A stretch of 64,000 nucleotides of DNA from positions 2,728,001-2,792,000 of the forward strand of contig NZ_CP012529.1 of NCBI RefSeq assembly GCF_001593285.1, read 5' to 3'. Made by a program: the position numbers and the translations under genes. Positions 47,456 through 56,759 of the stretch are shown here, one piece after another (position 1 is the first letter of the stretch; each line of letters starts with the position of its first letter). The notes under the pieces are model-generated. The model searched no databases. It had not been told where the DNA came from and saw only the letters and a list, made by a program, of their open reading frames with translations. The stretch comes from Psychrobacter sp. P2G3. GTDB taxonomy: Bacteria > Pseudomonadota > Gammaproteobacteria > Pseudomonadales > Moraxellaceae.

Positions 47456-48064
47456 TTAACCAAATACTTTCATACGCTCTTCAACAGACTTAAACTCTTT
47501 ATCGCCTGCTGGCTGCTCAATAGCACCGAATACCATTTGCGCATTCAATTCCCAATGTTCATCAATGTTCCAAGTGTCAGCCACTTTTTTATCGATGATT
47601 GGGTTGTAATGCTGCAAGTTAGCACCGATGTCGAGGCTAGCCAATGCTGTCCAGATTACATACTGGTGCATTGCATTGGTTTGGTCTGCCCAGATTGGGA
47701 ACTTGTCAGCATATAAAGGAGCAGCCGCTTGCATGTTTCTAATGACGCTATGGTCTTCAAAGAACATAACCGTACCAGCGCCAGCTTTAAAGCCATCCAT
47801 CTTTTGCTTGGTCGCAGCAAATTGCTCTTCATTATCGACAATACCACGTAAAGTATCTTCGGTAATTTGCCAAAGTTTTTGATGGTCATCACCAAACAAC
47901 ACAACGATACGCGTTGATTGCGAGTTAAAAGCTGATGGGGTGTGCAAAATAGCATGCTCAACCAGTTTAACGACTTCATCATTCGATACTGGTAGTTGAT
48001 TGCTCAACGCATAGACAGAACGACGCTTTTCAGCAAGTTGATGCAACTTCTGTAAATCTGACAT
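47456..48064 (-). CDS. nitroreductase family protein, Frm2/Hbn1-like
   Basis: A 202-residue FMN-dependent oxidoreductase. The family start EKRRSVYALSNQLPVSNDEVV lies at residues 12-32 (flavin-binding Arg and Ser), HTPSAFNSQSTRIVVLFG near 40-58, and the C-terminal AQMVFGAIEQPAG near 178. It belongs to the short branch typified by yeast Frm2/Hbn1 and bacterial relatives, which reduce nitroaromatics and respond to oxidative or lipid signals. The ATG has a GGAGAAG site. It opens a run of probable stress genes. Confidence 0.88.
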   Translation of the reverse strand: MSDLQKLHQLAEKRRSVYALSNQLPVSNDEVVKLVEHAILHTPSAFNSQSTRIVVLFGDDHQKLWQITEDTLRGIVDNEEQFAATKQKMDGFKAGAGTVMFFEDHSVIRNMQAAAPLYADKFPIWADQTNAMHQYVIWTALASLDIGANLQHYNPIIDKKVADTWNIDEHWELNAQMVFGAIEQPAGDKEFKSVEERMKVFG

Positions 48065-48254
48065 AGTACTTCTCCAAATTATTAATATGAATGGGTTAGA
48101 ATAAATGCTAGATGAGTATGGTTAAAGAGTTAGACTCAATAACCATTCGCTAAAACAATCTAACTGATTATAAAGAAAACCAGCTTAAACTCGTACTTTC
48201 TTTTCGTAAAAAAACTTAACAATGTAATATATTATAAAAGTTATATTAAACAAA

Positions 48255-49193
48255 CTAACCTTTAAAACCTTCAGGCAATTCTGGAGCAGGCAGACGCTTC
48301 ATATCAGAATCAACTTCACCGAAACGTTCATGACCATTGTTCCAGTCAATAATTGATTGTTCAATCTCAGCTTTGTTGTCTGCGACGAAGTTCCACCATA
48401 GTAGCACTTGGTTGTTCAAAGGCTCACCGCCGATAAACATCACACGCGTACCTTTTTTGGCGACTAGCTTAATGCTTTCATTGTTGGCGACATCGGTATC
48501 ATGAAAGCGCAGTAATTGATCTTGTGGGCATACTTTGCCTTCAGACTCAATCTCGCCTTCTGTAACCAAGATACCATATTCAAAACCTGGCTCTAAGTTG
48601 AGCGTGACTTCACCATCTTCTAAAAAGTAGACATCAATACCGACCATTTTTGAATATTGGATGGTAGGCGCTTCATAGCGCTCGCCTGATACGCTAGTAT
48701 AGCTACCTGTCGTCAGTATCATCTCCACGCTATCCTCGCGCCACGTTGGCAGCTCTGGATAATGATGGAAGTCTGGCTCAATTTCTTTATCGGTAGGCAA
48801 TGCAATCCATAGTTGTACCATGCTCAGCGCACGTGCCGCATCTGACGAGCCACCAGTATCTGGAAAGACGCTCTGCTCAGTATGGCTGATGCCTCGGTTA
48901 AGGCCTGTCCCTGCGGTCATGACGTTGACTTGATTTTTAGTGATCACTTGCTCATTACCCAAGCTGTCTTTGTGCAGCACTTCGCCATTTAACATCCAGC
49001 TAAAGGTTTGCAAATTAGTATGCGGATGACGGCCGACTTGCATGCCTGCATCATCTTCATCGAATTCAGCTGGGCCTGCATGATCCAAAAAGCACCAAGC
49101 GCCAATAGGCTTTTTGCCCGTATTGGGTAAAAGACGGGCAATTGGAATACCGCCAACATCTGCCAAACGTGGTTCTAAGATATCGATACTCAT
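48255..49193 (-). CDS. pirin family protein (longer type)
   Basis: A 312-residue bicupin. The metal-site histidines are in GRHPHTNLQTFSWML near residue 55 and in TGLNRGISHTEQS near 100, where the usual second cupin ligands lie. A C-terminal NQVLLWWNFVADN segment is typical of the branch. Pirins bind Fe, and some have quercetin 2,3-dioxygenase activity; the substrate here is unknown. Ribosome site GAGGTG. It does not carry the shared promoter module found upstream of its neighbour. Confidence 0.88.
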   Translation of the reverse strand: MSIDILEPRLADVGGIPIARLLPNTGKKPIGAWCFLDHAGPAEFDEDDAGMQVGRHPHTNLQTFSWMLNGEVLHKDSLGNEQVITKNQVNVMTAGTGLNRGISHTEQSVFPDTGGSSDAARALSMVQLWIALPTDKEIEPDFHHYPELPTWREDSVEMILTTGSYTSVSGERYEAPTIQYSKMVGIDVYFLEDGEVTLNLEPGFEYGILVTEGEIESEGKVCPQDQLLRFHDTDVANNESIKLVAKKGTRVMFIGGEPLNNQVLLWWNFVADNKAEIEQSIIDWNNGHERFGEVDSDMKRLPAPELPEGFKG

Positions 49194-49457: not shown

Positions 49458-50171
49458 TTAGAAACTCATCGGCACTTCCATTAGTAGTACCTTAGCATCT
49501 TCTTCTACGTCCATCGTGAAGTTCTTAGTATCCCAAGCACCAAGTCCATCACGAGTATCCAAAGTGTTACCGTTTACGTTTACTTTACCGCTAATGACAA
49601 ATATATAGACACCGTTATTAGGGTCATTTAACTGGTAAGTCTGAGTCACGCCTTTGTCAAAATCACCCATGCTAAACCAAGCATTTTGATGAATCCACAC
49701 GCCAGCATCATCAGCGTTTGGTGACAATACTTGATTGAACTCGTTTGGCTGCATGATTTCATCCATGCGTACTTGCTGATAACGAGGCGCTACGTTCATT
49801 TTGTTTGGAATGACCCAAATCTGTAAGAACTTTACGTCCTCTTTGTCATCGCCATTCATCTCACTGTGAGTAATGCCAGTACCAGCTGACATAACTTGGA
49901 TTTCACCCGTTTCGATAATGCCATTGTTACCAATGTTATCGCCATGACCGAGCTTACCAGATAATGGAATACTGATGATTTCCATATCGCGATGCGAGTG
50001 CTTACCAAAACCTTGACCACCGATGACAAAATCATCATTGATGACGCGTAGTGCGCCAAAGCCCATACGCTCTGGGTTGTGGTAATTTGCAAAACTAAAA
50101 GTGTGCTTGCTTTTGAGCCAGCCATGGTTTGCATCGCCACGAGAATCTGCTGCATGATAGATAGTTTTCAT
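49458..50171 (-). CDS. yhhW: pirin family protein, YhhW-like
   Basis: A 237-residue bicupin close to E. coli YhhW (quercetin 2,3-dioxygenase activity in vitro). Iron ligands fit FGKHSHRDMEIISIPL near residues 56-70 (two His) and GTGITHSEMNGDD near 100 (His and Glu). The protein is preceded by AAGGATA. A shared 70-bp promoter module lies upstream (-10 box 77 bp before the ATG), identical in layout to those of yoaK and doxX. The divergent GNAT gene lies on the other side of it. Confidence 0.93.
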   Translation of the reverse strand: MKTIYHAADSRGDANHGWLKSKHTFSFANYHNPERMGFGALRVINDDFVIGGQGFGKHSHRDMEIISIPLSGKLGHGDNIGNNGIIETGEIQVMSAGTGITHSEMNGDDKEDVKFLQIWVIPNKMNVAPRYQQVRMDEIMQPNEFNQVLSPNADDAGVWIHQNAWFSMGDFDKGVTQTYQLNDPNNGVYIFVISGKVNVNGNTLDTRDGLGAWDTKNFTMDVEEDAKVLLMEVPMSF

Positions 50172-50247
50172 AATTTATCCTTATTTATTGAGGAGTTAAA
50201 CATGTCTGAAAATTTACTATTAACGAACTTGTCTAAACAATGGAACT

Positions 50248-50317
50248 ATTATAATTGTTGTTGAAGAAGAGATAAACATGGTAAATCGCAAATAACTATT
50301 CTTATTCTAAGAACAAT
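50248..50317 (-). promoter_or_regulatory. LysR-type promoter module A (upstream of yhhW)
   Basis: Read on the minus strand, an inverted repeat TTCTTAGAATAAGAAT (50298-50317 with its ATTGTT flank) is centred 55.5 bp upstream of a TATAAT box at 50248-50253. A weak TTTATC -35 box is 17 bp before it. The geometry puts the repeat near -65. Confidence 0.7.
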
Positions 50318-50452
50318 TAAACAACCTTAATAGAGTAATATATTCATAACAGAACAATCAGCATAAGCTGTTAATATTATTAATGTTAACTAAATAGAGT
50401 TAAGTCTATAAAATGTTAAATAGATAAAACCAACTAATAAGGAAAGTTAATT

Positions 50453-50788
50453 ATGTCTAATGAGTCAAACAGAGAGTCTTTAAATTACGAGCTGATCGAT
50501 AATACTGAGCGAAAACGCTTTGAGATTCATGTTGATGGTCATATTGCTTTTGAGGACTATGAGTTTTTTACCACTAGTCAGGGTGAAAAAGGCATTGAAT
50601 ATAAACATACTGAAGTGCCAAAAGAATTGAGTGGACGCGGTATCGCAGGTTACCTTGTTAAATCAATCTTAGATGATGCTGCTGCTAAAGGTTTACGGGT
50701 CAAACCCACCTGCCCTTACGTCAATTCTTATATCGACAAGCATCCAGAGTATAAAGCCAACTCTGTATTTCATGACGCAAAACCTTAA
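50453..50788 (+). CDS. YjdJ-like GNAT protein
   Basis: A 111-residue N-acetyltransferase-fold protein of the short YjdJ/PF14542 type. Its signature is VPKELSGRGIAGYLVKSIL near residues 60-78 and VKPTCPYVNSYIDKHPEYK near 82-101. Members keep the acetyl-CoA loop but often lack an obvious acceptor site, so the substrate is unknown. The gene is divergent from yhhW across promoter module A. Confidence 0.85.
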   Translation: MSNESNRESLNYELIDNTERKRFEIHVDGHIAFEDYEFFTTSQGEKGIEYKHTEVPKELSGRGIAGYLVKSILDDAAAKGLRVKPTCPYVNSYIDKHPEYKANSVFHDAKP

Positions 50789-50823
50789 TAAAGTATCAAG
50801 TCAATAATAAAAAACGAGTCAAA

Positions 50824-50855
50824 AAAAACGCCATGCTAAAAAGCATGGCGTTTTT
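50824..50855. terminator. bidirectional terminator between YjdJ-like and YcaC-like genes
   Basis: A perfect 14-bp stem, AAAAACGCCATGCT with AGCATGGCGTTTTT, around a 4-nt loop. Confidence 0.92.
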
Positions 50856-50885
50856 GATTCAACAATAAACAGTCAATAGCTTATA

Positions 50886-51554
50886 TTACTTATTGCTGTC
50901 ATCAGTTAAAGCGTTGTAGCTGTCGATTAATGGAGCATAAGCTGGGATTGTTTGATAGAAAAGGTCTAGGTACCCTTCCATATCTTCACGCCAGTCACGA
51001 CGGATTTCATTGGCTACAGCGAACCAAGTCAGTGGTTGTGCGCCAGCAGCTACCATACGATCGATAGCAGAGGTACGGCTAAGCTCATTAAATGTACCTG
51101 AAGCATCAGTCACCACAAATACTTCATAGCCCGCTTTTAGGGCAGATAACGCTGGGAATGCAACACATACTTCAGTCACGATACCAGCAATAATCAATTG
51201 CTTACGACCAGTGGCTTCAATGGCTTTAACAAAATCTTCGTTGTCCCAAGCATTGATCTGACCAGGACGAGCGATATAAGGCGCATCAGCGAACATCTCT
51301 TTTAGCTCTGGCATCATAGGACCGTTTGGACCTTGCTCAAAACTAGTCGTCATCACTGCTGGCAAGTCAAAGTACTTAGTCAATTTTGCAAGTGCCATGA
51401 CGTTATTTTTGAATTCAGCTGGCTCGATGTCACGAACTAAAGATAATAGACCTGCTTGATGATCTACGAATAACACAACAGCATTATCCAAAGATAGACG
51501 GTTGTATAAGTTGTCATCAGTTTTTAAATTTTCATTAGTATTTGAATCAGACAT
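50886..51554 (-). CDS. isochorismatase-family hydrolase, YcaC-like
   Basis: A 222-residue hydrolase of the cysteine-hydrolase superfamily from the ATG at 51554 (AAGGAAAG site). The catalytic Asp is in VVLFVDHQAGLLS near residue 20, and the nucleophile Cys in IAGIVTEVCVAFPAL near 120. The ending, including QPLTWFAVANEIRRDW and a Tyr-rich tail, matches YcaC proteins. The substrate is unknown. A promoter-like region of its own lies upstream (TATAAT at 51620-51625 on the minus strand). Confidence 0.9.
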   Translation of the reverse strand: MSDSNTNENLKTDDNLYNRLSLDNAVVLFVDHQAGLLSLVRDIEPAEFKNNVMALAKLTKYFDLPAVMTTSFEQGPNGPMMPELKEMFADAPYIARPGQINAWDNEDFVKAIEATGRKQLIIAGIVTEVCVAFPALSALKAGYEVFVVTDASGTFNELSRTSAIDRMVAAGAQPLTWFAVANEIRRDWREDMEGYLDLFYQTIPAYAPLIDSYNALTDDSNK

Positions 51555-51875
51555 AATACTTTCCTTTTTTAGTGAAAAAATCAAAGTGGTCTAGTGCCGT
51601 TATCATACACGAACCATTTATTATAGTTAAGTTTAACTTAAAACTTACTATGCAATAGTAAATATTTCTTAAAAATATATTAGCATAACAATTTTATATT
51701 TCATTAATATGCTAGTATGTTGTTTGTTAGCTTTATGTTAAAAATTCTTTTTAAATCATAATGATAGCTATTAAATTAAAAACCTATCTGAATTTAAATA
51801 TTTTTATTTATCACTTCTATCATTATTTTTATTACTGTTACTTTCTATCATTACTACTATTTAATCGATATAGCA
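51555..51875. promoter_or_regulatory. YcaC-like promoter region with palindrome
   Basis: A TATAAT on the minus strand (51620-51625) and a perfect 15-bp palindrome TTAAGTTTAACTTAA (51627-51641) sit upstream of the YcaC-like gene. The palindrome overlaps the likely promoter and differs from the operator of modules A-C. The rest is AT-rich with no gene. Confidence 0.5.
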
Positions 51876-52631
51876 TTACTTACCTGTTGCATGTTTCAAA
51901 GACTGCTTATTACGCATTTTAATTGCCGCGTACAGTACTGGTAGGATGAAAGGTGCTATCGCCCATAGACCGATATAAATGTATAATACCGCGCCAAAAA
52001 AGGCACCTAAGGTAAAGCTAGCAACCAAAGTAAAGCTATGTCTCAGACTGTCCATGTTGCAATTATTGCGATCAAATACATAGTCAGACAAGTCGATACC
52101 AAGCTGAGTAGTGTTACCTGTCATCAGTAATGTAGGTTTCATCTTACCCATTACTGTTTTACCTGCAGTATTACGAATGGCAAAAGCGGTTAGACCTAAA
52201 AAGCCAGTAAAGGCGACTTCTAGCGTACCAGCTTGCTCAAAAGGACCGAAATAGATAGCCGACGCTAAAAATGCGAGTAAAAAGGCGACTTCCGCAAACA
52301 GTAAATTACTAAGTATTGGTTTGTTTGCGCTGGCAATATTGATAGCGCGTTTGGTAAGAATGACTGTAATCAAGAATACTGGTAACGCGCCTAATTTGAC
52401 CCAAAGCCCATCACCACCTTCGACAAGTCCACCACCTGCCATCACCAAGTTACCTGTCACATGGTTGGTAAAGAAGCCGAGCAGTCCGACGAAACCAATG
52501 GTATCAATAGCACCGCCAACCGTAGTTAACATTACAGGTATCTGGTAACGTTGCCAAAACGTTAGATTAGAGTCTGGGTTGTTGTCCCGTACCTCATCAC
52601 TTTCATCTTTTCTCTCATCTATATTAGCCAT
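51876..52631 (-). CDS. YoaK/DUF1275 membrane protein, first paralogue
   Basis: A 251-residue polytopic membrane protein of DUF1275 (YoaK family). Conserved parts are TTVGGAIDTIGFVGLLGFF near residues 37-55, HVTGNLVMAGGGL near 58-70, LTAFAIRNTAGKTVMGKMKP in the middle and MTGNTTQLGIDLSDYV near 170. About six membrane segments. Function unknown. Ribosome site GGAGAG. It has the shared promoter module with the same 77-bp distance to the ATG as yhhW. It is closely related to the next gene upstream. Confidence 0.87.
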   Translation of the reverse strand: MANIDERKDESDEVRDNNPDSNLTFWQRYQIPVMLTTVGGAIDTIGFVGLLGFFTNHVTGNLVMAGGGLVEGGDGLWVKLGALPVFLITVILTKRAINIASANKPILSNLLFAEVAFLLAFLASAIYFGPFEQAGTLEVAFTGFLGLTAFAIRNTAGKTVMGKMKPTLLMTGNTTQLGIDLSDYVFDRNNCNMDSLRHSFTLVASFTLGAFFGAVLYIYIGLWAIAPFILPVLYAAIKMRNKQSLKHATGK

Positions 52632-52707
52632 TGGACTCTCCTATGAATTTTGTAAACTCATTAACAATTTTTTGTATAAACTTCTGATTACGTTCGCTGA
52701 TTTAACT

Positions 52708-52777
52708 ATTATAATTGTTGACTATAAATAGATAAACCACGATGAACACAAATATAAGTTCTTGTTTTAAGAACAAT
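52708..52777 (-). promoter_or_regulatory. LysR-type promoter module B (upstream of first yoaK)
   Basis: Inverted repeat GTTCTTGTTTTAAGAAC (52758-52774, then AAT) centred 55.5 bp from a TATAAT box (52708-52713) on the minus strand. The -35 position reads TTTATC, as in module A. The ATG lies 77 bp past the -10 box. Confidence 0.75.
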
Positions 52778-52817
52778 AGAGCTCATAATCATTCAAAAAT
52801 TGAAAGCGCTTAAAGCC

Positions 52818-53591
52818 TTAACCAATATTTCGTAAAAAATCCTTATCTCTAGACAAAATCGACAAGTAAAGAACTGGCAGTACAAATAAACCAACTGCCC
52901 AATAGCTCAACTTAACATACAGAACAGCGCCTAATAACGCACCAATCACAAAGCTCATGACCAACGCTGAGCTATGAACTAACTTTTTAGCATTCTCAGA
53001 CGTTCTATTTGATAAGTAATCTGATAGGCCTATTCCTAACTGCGTAGTATTGCCTGTCATCAGTACCGTTGGACTCATGTGCTTAATGACTGTTTTGCTG
53101 GCCGTATTACGAATCGCTAAAGCCGTTAAACCTAAGCCACCAGTTATCGCAACGGTAATAGCACCTGCATCGATAAAGGGTTGAAAAGACAAGCCCGCGA
53201 TCATAAATGCGGTCAAAAACACTGCTTCAGCTAAGAATAAATGACTCAGGATCAGCTGCTGTTTTTTGCTTTTATCTATGTATATCTTCGTTACTACTAC
53301 CGTCAAAATAAACAGCGGTACAGATGCAAGCTTAATCCATAGACCATCTTCGCCTTTCACCAAGCCGCTACCTGCTAGTACTAAGTTACCAGTAACATGA
53401 GCGGTAAAAAACCCAAACAAAGTTATAAAGCCAATGGTATCAATGGCACCGCCAACGACCGTGAGTAACACGGGCGCTTGATAACGTTGCCAAAAGCTTG
53501 ATGGCTTACCATCTTGAGCACCACTCTTATCATTCTTAGATACAGTATTGTTAGATTCAATGTTGTTAGAGGCGCTGTTATGCACTGGCAT
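52818..53591 (-). CDS. YoaK/DUF1275 membrane protein, second paralogue
   Basis: A 257-residue DUF1275 membrane protein from the ATG at 53591; a TTG three codons earlier is also possible. It repeats the first paralogue closely: FWQRYQAPVLLTVVGGAIDTI near residue 35, HVTGNLVLAGSGL, LTALAIRNTASKTVI and MTGNTTQLGIGLSDYL. The polar N-terminus is Asn/Ser-rich. Its start overlaps the end of the FMN reductase gene, so they are translationally coupled. No promoter of its own is visible. Confidence 0.87.
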   Translation of the reverse strand: MPVHNSASNNIESNNTVSKNDKSGAQDGKPSSFWQRYQAPVLLTVVGGAIDTIGFITLFGFFTAHVTGNLVLAGSGLVKGEDGLWIKLASVPLFILTVVVTKIYIDKSKKQQLILSHLFLAEAVFLTAFMIAGLSFQPFIDAGAITVAITGGLGLTALAIRNTASKTVIKHMSPTVLMTGNTTQLGIGLSDYLSNRTSENAKKLVHSSALVMSFVIGALLGAVLYVKLSYWAVGLFVLPVLYLSILSRDKDFLRNIG

Positions 53592-54132
53592 TTCCGGCAA
53601 ACACTACAAACTCATCCACAAACTTTTGCAGGAATTTTTGCGTGCGCTCACTGACGCTACCATCTTCATTTAGGCTATCAGTAGCATGGCCTAGGTATAC
53701 TTCAGGGCTAATCATCATTTGAGCCGATAGCATTTGCATGCTTTTACGGACATCGAGACCGCTAGCTCTGCCACCATAAGTGCCAGGAGACGCTGTCACT
53801 ACTGCTACTTTTTTGTCTGTCCAAGCGCTATCGCCATGAGGACGAGAGGCGATATCGATGACATTTTTTAAGGCAGCAGGCATCGTACGATTATGCTCTG
53901 GTGTGACAATCAATATGGCATCAGCATTTTTAATCTGCTTACGGACACGATCATAACTCTCAATCGTCTGGTCATCATAATCTTGATTATAAAGAGGCAA
54001 GTCTGCGATATTCACTTCTGTCACCGTGAGGCTATCTGGAAATTGCGACACCATATATTCTGCAAACTTACGATTGATTGATGCCTCTCGTAAGCTACCA
54101 ATGATTAGGGCTATATTCGTCGATGCGTTCAT
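53578..54132 (-). CDS. NADPH-dependent FMN reductase family protein
   Basis: A 184-residue flavodoxin-like NAD(P)H oxidoreductase. Typical parts are IALIIGSLREASINRKFAEYM at the start (flavin phosphate loop), VTPEHNRTMPAALKNVIDIASR near 80-100 and SPGTYGGRASG near 115. Relatives reduce FMN, quinones, chromate or azo dyes. Its ribosome site is AGGAGG with a long spacer. It lies between doxX and the second yoaK paralogue in one unit. Confidence 0.92.
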   Translation of the reverse strand: MNASTNIALIIGSLREASINRKFAEYMVSQFPDSLTVTEVNIADLPLYNQDYDDQTIESYDRVRKQIKNADAILIVTPEHNRTMPAALKNVIDIASRPHGDSAWTDKKVAVVTASPGTYGGRASGLDVRKSMQMLSAQMMISPEVYLGHATDSLNEDGSVSERTQKFLQKFVDEFVVFAGNASA

Positions 54133-54185
54133 AATGATGAAGACCTCCTCTTTACCGTACGTTAATTGATTTAATTGTGCTTAGC

Positions 54186-54215
54186 TTAGCGTTACTTAAT
54201 TTAGCGTTGCTTAGT
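54186..54215. repeat. 15-bp tandem duplication at the doxX stop
   Basis: Two direct copies of TTAGCGTTACTTAAT-like sequence (54186-54200 and 54201-54215) span the doxX stop codon and the gap to the FMN reductase gene. Confidence 0.6.
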
Positions 54216-54618
54216 GTAACGTTCTTGTTCTGGGTGCATGATCTTTATCAACTGAATAAGCGCCTGGACCATGAGCAAATATCATTAAGAAACCACCAGC
54301 CATCGCGATGTTTTTCATAAATGGGTTCATCTGTGATTCGTCATTCCAGAATTGATGGAAAATAAGCGCAGAAACGATATTGAATCCAACAAATAACAAT
54401 GATATTAGACGTGCTTTAAAGCCAATTAAGATAGCAATACCACCTAATAACTCAAGTGCAATCACTAGTGGCAATAGTAAGCTTGGTACGCCTACCGATT
54501 CCATATAACCTGCTGTTGCAGCGTAACCCGTAATCTTAGAAAACCCTGAAAAAATAAAAATCATTGATAAAAATAGGCGACCAATAGGGGCGCTCATATC
54601 TTGTAATTTATCCATCAT
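54211..54618 (-). CDS. DoxX family membrane protein
   Basis: A 135-residue, four-span DoxX/YphA-like protein. The first span and signature are GRLFLSMIFIFSGFSKITGY at residues 13-32; LVIALELLGGIAILIGFKARLI and FMKNIAMAGGFLMIFAHGPG follow. Some relatives work with sulfur or thiol oxidoreductases, but none is proven here. It begins the promoter-module-C unit: doxX, FMN reductase and second yoaK. A Met repeat at the start leaves one residue uncertain. Confidence 0.9.
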   Translation of the reverse strand: MMDKLQDMSAPIGRLFLSMIFIFSGFSKITGYAATAGYMESVGVPSLLLPLVIALELLGGIAILIGFKARLISLLFVGFNIVSALIFHQFWNDESQMNPFMKNIAMAGGFLMIFAHGPGAYSVDKDHAPRTRTLH

Positions 54619-54698
54619 TACTCTCCATAAATTTATGAATATATATTTACGAATGTAGATATATTTAAGTTTTTTTCGACTGTTTGTTCAGTGGAATT
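54619..54698. other. doxX leader
   Basis: The 80 bp between the doxX start and the -10 box of module C is AT-rich with no other feature visible. Confidence 0.35.
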
Positions 54699-54768
54699 AT
54701 TGTACACATTGACTAAATTTATATAAACAGCAATAATCACAAATATCTGTTCTTATTTTGAGAACAAT
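54699..54768 (-). promoter_or_regulatory. LysR-type promoter module C (upstream of doxX)
   Basis: Inverted repeat GTTCTTATTTTGAGAAC (54749-54765, then AAT) is centred 55.5 bp from a TACAAT box (54699-54704). The -35 position reads TTTATA. The layout is the same as in modules A and B. The yceI gene is divergent, about 290 bp on the far side. Confidence 0.72.
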
Positions 54769-55057: not shown

Positions 55058-55666
55058 ATGACTTTAAAATCTATCAAACAAGCAAATCGCGTTGTGGCTT
55101 TTGCTGCTATCAGTGCTCTTGGCATGCTTAGCACTTTAGGTCACGCTGCTACTTACGAGCTTGACCCTCACCATACCGCAGTGCGCTTTTCTGTCGATCA
55201 CTTTGGCACCACGACCAACGCTGGTGGCTTCCATAATCTATCGGGCACACTTGAGTACGCACCTGAAGATCAAAAAGGTTTTATAGGGATTACTATCCCT
55301 ATGGGTAGCTTGAGCACAGGCCTCAAAATCTTTGATGGACATCTAAAATCTGCTGACTTTTTTAATGTAGAAAAATACCCAACGGCTTATTTTAAATCTA
55401 CTGAGTGGCAGTTTGATGGCGATAAAGTCAAGGCAGTCAAAGGTGACTTAACGCTGCTTGATAAGACTCACCCTGTGACTTTAACGGCTACTAAGTTTAA
55501 CTGCTATGACAACCCTTTATTAAAAGCTGAAGCTTGTGGTGGTGATTTTGAAACCACTATCGATAGAACCAAATGGGGTATCGATACTTATACAGATGGC
55601 GGTATGATGAAAGACATCAAACTGGTCATTCAAGTAGAAGCCAGCAAAAAGGCAGATCTTAAATAA
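55058..55666 (+). CDS. YceI family periplasmic lipid-binding protein
   Basis: A 202-residue secreted lipocalin-like protein. Signal peptide of about 29 residues ending GHAAT. The mature part begins YELDPHHTAVRFSVDHFGTT and shows the YceI strand pattern, with DGHLKSADFFNVEKYP near 98 and LTLLDKTHPVTLTATKFN near 130. Family members bind isoprenoid quinones or other amphiphilic molecules. That suits a place beside quinone-related genes. It is divergent from doxX, and followed by a terminator. Confidence 0.93.
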   Translation: MTLKSIKQANRVVAFAAISALGMLSTLGHAATYELDPHHTAVRFSVDHFGTTTNAGGFHNLSGTLEYAPEDQKGFIGITIPMGSLSTGLKIFDGHLKSADFFNVEKYPTAYFKSTEWQFDGDKVKAVKGDLTLLDKTHPVTLTATKFNCYDNPLLKAEACGGDFETTIDRTKWGIDTYTDGGMMKDIKLVIQVEASKKADLK

Positions 55667-55747: not shown

Positions 55748-55760
55748 GATTCTGCGAGAT

Positions 55761-55800
55761 TTTGCAAGGGGAGTTCTACTTAAAGAACTCCCCTTGCAAA
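55761..55800. repeat. perfect 17-bp inverted repeat upstream of the lysR gene
   Basis: TTTGCAAGGGGAGTTCT and its exact complement flank a 6-nt loop (ACTTAA). No T run follows, so it is not an ordinary terminator. Its centre contains GTTCT-6-AGAAC, close to the operator half-sites of promoter modules A-C. It lies 53 bp upstream of the LysR start codon. Confidence 0.85.
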
Positions 55801-55853
55801 GCTATAAGATAAGATAATACGATATAGCGGGCAACGATAATAGGGTAGCTAGG

Positions 55854-56759
55854 ATGGGACAACTAGAAGATATGGCAATGTTTGTACGCATTGTCGAAGC
55901 CGGTAGTATTACTAAAGCCGCTGAGCAGTTAGATGTTGCCAAATCGGCTGTGAGTAGGCGTTTAAAGGATTTAGAGACTCGCTTGGGCAATCAGTTGATA
56001 AGCCGGACCACTCGGCAGTCTAACTTGACCGAGGCTGGTGAGCATTATTACCGACAGGCGAACAATATACTCAGTGAAGTGGACGCACTTAACGAGCAGA
56101 CCAGTGGTGCGCCTACACGCATTGAAGGCACGCTAAAGATGACAGCACCCCTGTCATTTGGGCTTATGCATCTGAATGATGTGATTGATGAGTACGCCAA
56201 TCAACATCCCAATCTAAGCTTTGATTTGGATTTTTCTGATCGACACGTTGACTTGATTGAAGAGGGTTTTGAGTTAGCCATTCGTATTAGAGAGCTACAA
56301 GACTCCAGCTATCAGGCAAAGCGTTTAGCGCTGATTCGTTATGCGCTTTGTGCCAGCCCAGAGTATTTAGAAAAGATGGGAACGCCTGAGACCCTAGAAG
56401 ACTTACAAGAACATGAGTTCTTGCAATATGGTCTGGGCAAAACAAGCACGTTAACCCTGACGGACGCGCAAGGGAAAAAACACAACCATACAATAAACGC
56501 AAAAATCAAAGCGACTAATGGTGAGTTCTTAGTGGATTTGGCAGTGAAAGGTCATGGTATTATTTTTATACCAACCTTTATCGCTTACCAAAGATTGGCC
56601 AAAGGTGAGCTAGTGCCTATTCTTAAGCAGTATCAATTGCCCACCCTTAATGCTTATGCGGTTTACCCTAAGAACCGCTTCTTGTCACAGCGCTGCCGTT
56701 ATTTGATTGACTTTATTGCAGAGCGTTTTGGCGACCATCCTTATTGGGATGAGTTCTGA
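55854..56759 (+). CDS. LysR-type transcriptional regulator, CrgA-like
   Basis: A 301-residue LysR family regulator. The winged helix-turn-helix is at residues 1-60, with MAMFVRIVEAGSITKAAEQL and KSAVSRRLKDLETRLG as the recognition part, followed by the linker and a periplasmic-binding-like effector domain (about 90-300). The type (SAVSRRLKDLE) is the CrgA/YafC/AaeR group, which often controls quinone, pirin and stress genes. It is next to yceI and the MBL-SDR pair. It is the only regulator near the three shared promoter modules. Confidence 0.92.
   Translation: MGQLEDMAMFVRIVEAGSITKAAEQLDVAKSAVSRRLKDLETRLGNQLISRTTRQSNLTEAGEHYYRQANNILSEVDALNEQTSGAPTRIEGTLKMTAPLSFGLMHLNDVIDEYANQHPNLSFDLDFSDRHVDLIEEGFELAIRIRELQDSSYQAKRLALIRYALCASPEYLEKMGTPETLEDLQEHEFLQYGLGKTSTLTLTDAQGKKHNHTINAKIKATNGEFLVDLAVKGHGIIFIPTFIAYQRLAKGELVPILKQYQLPTLNAYAVYPKNRFLSQRCRYLIDFIAERFGDHPYWDEF

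Follow-up and report, generated by a model that had tools for sequence, protein, structure and literature searches.

The 64,000 nucleotides of Psychrobacter sp. P2G3 analysed here (contig NZ_CP012529.1, positions 2,728,001 to 2,792,000; hereafter the window) contain three minus-strand promoters, situated in front of a yhhW-type pirin gene, the first of two genes for DUF1275 (YoaK-like) membrane proteins (yoaK1) and a doxX gene, that resemble copies of a single regulatory module. The question raised by this locus is which protein reads these promoters and to which signal it responds. Comparison with the remainder of the genome, the genus and more distant bacteria establishes that the module exists, that its spacing is fixed and that, as far as genomes were examined, it is confined to certain genes; it also shows that the module co-occurs with, and lies next to, one group of LysR-type regulators. 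As judged from the compared sequences, the member of this group encoded in the window, LysR-55854, is very probably the direct activator of four promoters, namely those of doxX-FMN (flavin mononucleotide) reductase-yoaK2, of yoaK1, of the yhhW-type pirin gene and, outside the window, of a gene for a glutathionyl-hydroquinone reductase.

All three window promoters carry one rigid module of ~79 bp, consisting of the dyad TTGTTCT-N7-AGAAY, a -35 hexamer TTTATC, a 17-bp spacer and a -10 hexamer TANNNT. When the first A of ATTGTTCT is numbered 0, the dyad centre lies at 11, TTTATC at 41-46 and, after the 17-bp spacer, TANNNT at 64-69. Copies from the genus also keep an A at position 76, and over half of them have a C before it. 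If this conserved A, seven bases past the -10 box, is the transcription start, the dyad centre would be located at -65. The motif T-N11-A is present in the dyad, and the distance from dyad to -10 box is fixed at 55.5 bp. Of 119 distinct genus sites, 116 have TANNNT at a single offset, as do 18 of 23 sites outside the genus, two of the latter (L190 and L193) being classed so from sequence identities alone.

The initial annotation had described one module on the minus strand before the pirin, first yoaK and doxX genes, and all three could be located there. The 55.5 bp it gave between dyad centre and -10 box (centre to centre) are exact in each of them, the -35 hexamers TTTATC, TTTATC and TTTATA were confirmed, each with a 17-bp spacer, and the 77 or 81 bp from the end of the -10 box to the ATG were measured as 77 (pirin), 77 (yoaK1) and 81 (doxX). 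The layout of a LysR-type activator near -65 is supported as well, with the dyad ~65 bp upstream of the putative start. The repeat GTTCTT-N5-AAGAAC, which had been taken as common to the copies, is perfect in that of yoaK1 only and carries one mismatch in each of the other two.

The bare palindrome was rejected as evidence, since alone it does not rise above chance in the AT-rich DNA of the window: at ≤2 mismatches it gave 7 matches against 3.3 expected, a number equalled in 7 of 100 shuffles. Its relaxed form NTTCTT-N5-AAGAAN was dropped too, as it occurred at 12 distinct places in the genome against 6 for the reversed control, and the search was therefore moved to the extended module. The element ATTGTTCTNANAANAAGAANNNNTATTTG, derived from the three window copies alone, gave 4 matches at ≤3 mismatches in the 3.37-Mb genome, the fourth copy at 2 mismatches, and 0 for the reversed control. 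A sequence-only profile trained on 41 module copies from the window and relatives returned four matches in the own genome (E 8e-17, 3e-16, 2e-15 and 6e-14), followed by the next one at 0.06. These scores are flattered because all four copies were in the training set; fairer measures are the gap in E-value to the fifth match and the finding of the fourth copy with a pattern from three. The three promoters named initially are all real, and the genome total is four, the distant fourth having been absent from that annotation.

The -10 box of the fourth module reads TAAACT and is spaced as in the window modules. The gene behind it starts ~288 bp from the dyad centre, which gives a longer leader. 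From its sequence, we take the encoded protein to be a glutathionyl-hydroquinone reductase (YqjG/Xi-class), a probable assignment. Upstream of this gene lies an AraC-type regulator gene, named by eye, which occupies two open reading frames on the minus strand (L016:1575-2153 and 2193-2600), as if split.

To see which genes follow the module, 60 Psychrobacter genomes were searched with the profile (E ≤ 1e-4), which gave 106 sites, and loci were taken for all of them. Genes within 480 bp were named by their best blastp matches to the window proteins, with recognised genes preferred. The first recognised downstream gene encoded a yhhW-type pirin at 40 sites, DoxX at 38, the hydroquinone reductase at 10, a DUF1275 protein at 7, a pirin of another subfamily at 4, a YcaC-like hydrolase at 4 and the FMN reductase at 2. 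Thus 105 of the 106 copies precede genes from one functional set, and the single site without an assigned gene is at a locus end; a separate reading of it gives a pirin. Modules in front of unrelated genes, by which the proposed regulon had been said to stand or fall, were looked for in these 60 genomes and none was seen. The distance from module to gene exceeds 300 bp at two sites only, one in G057 and one at the outer of two adjacent modules before the pirin gene of G085. The doxX gene of G057 (L281) is broken into pieces and followed by yoaK2, and the broken gene accounts for the long distance.

The LysR gene at 55854, the candidate named from the start, is supported both by divergent adjacency and by co-occurrence with the module. 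Its product exceeds the cut-offs for both domains (PF00126, 73.5 bits; PF03466, 128.9 bits) and is one of the 20 LysR proteins encoded by its genome. Divergent neighbours within 480 bp of the 106 sites were annotated against all 20: a LysR-55854-like gene was found at 40 sites, whole at 39 and reduced to a remnant at one in G170, and a different LysR at none. The other divergent neighbours were an N-acetyltransferase gene (19), yceI (9) and unrecognised genes (7), with nothing listed at 31. In 31 of the 40 divergent cases the dyad centre is located 12-55 bp from the lysR start. Remnants of LysR-55854-like genes were observed next to the hydroquinone reductase module of G170 (L306:2746-2973, residues 140-215) and G186 (L079:6076-6270, residues 140-204), as if a second lysR copy had once stood divergently there.

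With a threshold of E ≤ 1e-80, an orthologue of LysR-55854 is present in 81 of 105 genomes of the genus (96% identical in G164) and in 1 of 194 other genomes of the family. In this one, G107, a module with 2 mismatches lies between lysR and doxX. Among the 60 genomes of the profile survey, all 47 that encode an orthologue have the module, as does 1 of the 13 that do not (Fisher p 9e-12, not corrected for shared ancestry; the counts ignore ancestry and gene linkage). The pattern at ≤3 mismatches has a site in 79 of the 81 genomes with the gene and in 4 of the 24 without it. The two gene-bearing genomes that lack such a site do have one under a looser pattern, and all four LysR-less genomes with a match were kept in the Fisher table of this search. 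In the first genus search, G176, G262 and G276 gave sites that are unassignable or weak; G176 has no profile match, and G262 and G276 are outside the 60-genome sample. Modules unlinked to the cluster, such as that of the hydroquinone reductase, are found in genomes with the lysR gene. In G023 (C2:475596-478508) the lysR orthologue is interrupted, with residues 1-234 and 232-299 encoded ~2 kb apart; that genome has one pattern match, and none near the interrupted gene.

The operator was also found elsewhere in Proteobacteria by a protein-blind scan, in which the operator pattern plus TTTAT was searched over 257 Gb of named genomes and gave 93 stretches, 80 of them with titles. At 15 of the 20 titled loci from outside Psychrobacter, a LysR-55854 homologue (44-80% identical) is divergent from the operator. 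Among the remaining five, the operator precedes the hydroquinone reductase gene (Alteromonadaceae), a ycaC-like gene (a metagenome-assembled genome, MAG, labelled 'Proteobacteria'), a pirin gene (Bisgaardia hudsonensis) or a pirin gene at the locus edge (Sneathiella chinensis), and the locus of a Kangiella MAG could not be judged. Some of the labels are weak. The only betaproteobacterial locus, from an Alcaligenaceae MAG, is 75-79% identical to the window proteins and may represent a misbinned contig or a recent transfer, and the lysR-bearing contig of the 'Proteobacteria' MAG is 76% identical. In Cocleimonas and Enterovibrio (L175 and L177), the gene across the operator from the LysR homologue encodes, by eye, a UmuD-like and a metallo-beta-lactamase-fold protein, respectively, and the regulon may be wider there.

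In the reverse direction, a comparison across the class, in which 60 of 369 genomes matched at E ≤ 1e-65, supplied the 29 top-ranking LysR homologues from beyond the family (44-56% identical). Their loci of ~3 kb hold yceI, pirin, doxX, hydroquinone reductase or FMN reductase genes in 27 of 29 cases, and in 20 not yceI alone. Within 440 bp around and upstream of the start, the operator was found at ≤3 mismatches in 21 of the 29 (17 of 580 in shuffles), and 20 of these 21 have TTTAT at the expected offset, though it was not part of the query. The distant operator often reads TTGTTGC-N7-AGAAC. A strict TANNNT is present in 3 of the 29 distant copies and.A...T in 19 of the 21 with operator; the geometry of the -10 box is kept in these copies, its sequence less so.

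From these comparisons we infer binding, activation rather than repression, the class of inducer and the start sites. One dimer of a LysR tetramer would occupy the dyad TTGTTCT-N7-AGAAY near -65 as recognition site, and the second dimer would occupy the conserved DNA between dyad and -35, ATTTGYAATTAT...GTTTATC, as activation site. A quinone-type or electrophilic aromatic compound would bind or modify LysR-55854, and the inducer-loaded protein would shift on the DNA and bring RNA polymerase to a promoter whose -35 is poor and whose -10 box is fixed. Because the -35 hexamer is poor yet almost invariant, TTTAT seems to be read by the regulator as well as by the polymerase. The quinone-type inducer is proposed because of the gene content and the parallels with YhaJ of Escherichia coli (PMC5031710) and with the joint induction of pirin/quercetinase, azoreductase, YqjG and DoxX genes in Pseudomonas fluorescens In5 (PMC5557065).

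Several observations weigh against this assignment. No LysR is adjacent at 66 of the 106 genus sites, and the genus pattern search at ≤3 mismatches gave 165 matches against 14 for the reversed control, so that the weakest single matches are noise. The co-occurrence is partly gene linkage, with doxX, pirin and lysR usually together, and 20 of the 24 LysR-less genomes have no match to the window pirin at E ≤ 1e-60 (three of these 20 are <90% complete). Four LysR-less genomes keep the pirin. The contig of G274 ends at the gene, and the module is damaged in G124 (31.4 bits) and G238 (23.9 bits), both of which lost its outer half-site; the two look alike and may go back to one event. The fourth, G043, retains an intact pirin module (51.7 bits) and is a real exception, with a best LysR relative of 37% identity. 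Among the distant homologues, 8 of 29 lack the operator at ≤3 mismatches. Finally, the nature of the effector is guessed from the kinds of gene controlled, and in some bacteria such genes respond to hypochlorite and further electrophiles.

That operator and regulator are right and the signal is a different one, with quinones incidental, is an alternative to be taken seriously, even if we do not favour it. The signal could then be hypochlorite or chloramine, a phenolic from plants or fungi, a redox-cycling secondary metabolite or the redox state of the membrane. Proteins of the DUF1275, YceI and isochorismatase-like families are not known to be tied firmly to quinones, whereas quinone conjugates are the named substrates of the glutathionyl-hydroquinone reductase, target of the fourth promoter and of 10 of the 106 genus sites. 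E. coli YhaJ is reported to answer dinitrotoluene (DNT) products and hydroquinone alike (PMC5031710). In P. fluorescens In5, the co-induction of quercetinases/pirins, azoreductases, YqjG and DoxX was seen against the fungus Rhizoctonia, which would suit a different signal as well, but pirins are also reported there as quercetinases, which suits quinones (PMC5557065).

It is unlikely that LysR-55854 represses without inducer, so that its effect would be mainly derepression, or that it also represses its own gene. The location of the dyad centre close to the lysR start in most divergent cases suits autorepression, but the -65 position, the poor -35 hexamer and the nearly invariant TTTAT fit activation, and the two roles are not mutually exclusive.

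Binding of the modules by another regulator, either one of the other LysR proteins or a non-LysR protein, with the LysR-55854 gene a mere passenger of the cluster, appears very improbable. In the window, yceI stands between lysR and the modules, lysR itself lacks a module, and G043 keeps the module without an orthologue. On the other hand, no different LysR is adjacent at any of the 106 sites, 21 of the 29 distant homologues chosen solely by their protein sequence have the operator upstream, 15 of the 20 titled non-Psychrobacter loci chosen solely by the operator encode a LysR-55854 homologue, and the cluster-unlinked hydroquinone reductase sites occur in genomes with the lysR gene. Recent duplication of one promoter without a common regulator, which the location of the modules within 4.5 kb and their like length and spacing could suggest, is hardly credible and was rejected, as the modules agree mainly at conserved positions while their flanks differ, and the same positions are kept at unlinked loci and across genera and classes.

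For LysR-55854 as activator, a broader history can be outlined tentatively, though we consider it doubtful as a whole: the LysR-operator pair would be old, with the geometry of its dyad, -35 and -10 kept from Alpha- to Gammaproteobacteria, and would form a general quinone or electrophile sensor, a role that in enteric bacteria would have passed to YhaJ, which is unrelated. Electrophiles may be sensed directly by the protein through Cys166. This cysteine, part of the CASP motif, is shared by 108 of 111 distinct homologues at least 44% identical; in the two other LysR proteins of the own genome whose xASP motif matches, the position is occupied by I or V. Since a cysteine in the CASP motif is common in this LysR subgroup, Cys166 is only a lead.

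The features of the locus are collected in the Table. The doxX, FMN reductase and yoaK2 genes probably form an operon with yoaK2 as third gene, as their spacing suggests, and the true start of yoaK2 may lie further in than the one listed. In relatives, the FMN reductase gene has its own module at 2 of the 106 sites. The window yceI occupies the place where lysR sits in many other genomes. No module was found at the ycaC-type gene of the window, whose membership in the regulon is uncertain; a different ycaC-like gene (32-33% identical) carries the module at 4 of the 106 sites. Just downstream of the cluster (47456-49193), a further pirin gene and a small nitroreductase-like gene, the latter named by eye and without NCBIfam match, have no module of their own.

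Table. Promoter modules of the proposed regulon and genes of the locus; positions refer to the window unless a contig is given, and transcription starts are putative.
Feature	Position	Strand	Dyad	-35	-10	Putative start	Profile or domain match	Remark
doxX promoter module	54690..54768	-	54749-54765 GTTCTC-N5-AAGAAC, centre 54757	TTTATA 54727-54722	TACAAT 54704-54699	~54692	63.2 bits	
yoaK1 promoter module	52700..52777	-	52758-52774, centre 52766	TTTATC 52736-52731	TATAAT 52713-52708	~52701	61.1 bits	before first DUF1275 gene
Pirin promoter module	50239..50317	-	50298-50314, centre 50306	TTTATC 50276-50271	TATAAT 50253-50248	~50241	58.6 bits	before yhhW-type pirin gene
Fourth module	G000:C1:950120-950194							1.8 Mb from window; upstream of gene for 326-amino-acid protein
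DoxX-family membrane protein	54211..54618	-					PF07681	first gene after doxX module
NADPH-dependent FMN reductase	53578..54132	-					PF03358	second gene of probable doxX operon
DUF1275 (YoaK-like) membrane protein 2	52818..53600	-					PF06912	overlaps FMN reductase gene; TTG listed as start
DUF1275 (YoaK-like) membrane protein 1	51876..52631	-					PF06912	own module
YcaC-type cysteine hydrolase	50886..51557	-					NF041461 over cut-off	downstream of yoaK1
Pirin (YhhW/quercetinase type)	49458..50171	-					PF02678 + PF17954	own module
YceI-family protein	55058..55666	+					PF04264	between doxX module and lysR
LysR-type regulator LysR-55854	55854..56759	+					HTH_1 + LysR_substrate over cut-off	301 amino acids

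With the profile, no module was detected before the window's lysR gene. A perfect hairpin with 18-bp arms around AAGGGGAGTTCT...AGAACTCCCCTT lies there at 55760-55801, ~53-94 bp upstream of the gene. It has a z-score of -4.8 for the folded stretch and a single genome copy at ≤3 mismatches, and among seven relatives a clearly similar one was seen in G248 (L083) only. This hairpin is unrelated to the module.

In a search of the open-access literature, no description was found of this LysR group with this operator, and an earlier one in subscription papers or regulon databases is possible. A LysR regulon for aromatic or quinone stress is known as a kind; what looks new is the pairing of this regulator with this operator, how far the pair reaches and how it contrasts with YhaJ. 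The analysis provides a precise DNA code for a stress regulon of many Psychrobacter and scattered other Proteobacteria, with the likely regulator named, and ties the poorly understood DoxX, pirin, DUF1275 and YcaC-like proteins to one signal. The promoters also offer a second candidate for an aromatic or quinone biosensor beside yqjF/YhaJ.

Among known systems, the quinone regulons of Firmicutes (MhqR, YodB/CatR and QsrR) place a DoxX-family protein, an FMN-dependent reductase and a dioxygenase under one quinone-sensing regulator; these regulators belong to families other than LysR and work by repression. By sequence, LysR-55854 is grouped with the CrgA/YafC/AaeR/TtdR subgroup. Its closest solved structure is 3hhg (E 6.5e-51), presumably CrgA of Neisseria meningitidis; CrgA controls the quinone reductase gene mdaB and answers an electrophilic lactone. 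The best NCBIfam model is YafC, whose equivalog NF040888 gave 237 bits, below the cut-off of 470. E. coli YafC, encoded between dkgB and yafD, is 36% identical to LysR-55854, and no module was found in the 6-kb E. coli stretch around yafC.

The nearest functional parallel is the YhaJ regulon of E. coli (yqjF, yhaK, yhhW, ygiD and ybiJ), described as scattered promoters under a LysR-type activator and induced by hydroquinone (PMC5031710). Like the regulon proposed here, it comprises several scattered promoters and includes DoxX (yqjF) and pirin-like (yhhW, yhaK) targets; E. coli yqjG, for the glutathionyl-hydroquinone reductase, follows yqjF, and a probable hydroquinone reductase is among the targets proposed here. 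A YhaJ orthologue was looked for in the own genome and rejected as regulator, being absent: the best YhaJ match among the 20 LysR proteins is L028, with 24% identity, and LysR-55854 is not among the blastp matches of YhaJ in this genome. No module was found in the E. coli K-12 stretch from yqjC to cyuA, a search that did not extend to the yhhW, ygiD and ybiJ promoters. The YhaJ box is given as TCA-N7-TGA (PMC5031710), in contrast to TTGTTCT-N7-AGAAY in the modules described here. The comparison points to one detoxification gene set being governed by two LysR proteins, LysR-55854 and YhaJ, that are unrelated and use different operators, which would be a clean case for the study of regulon replacement.

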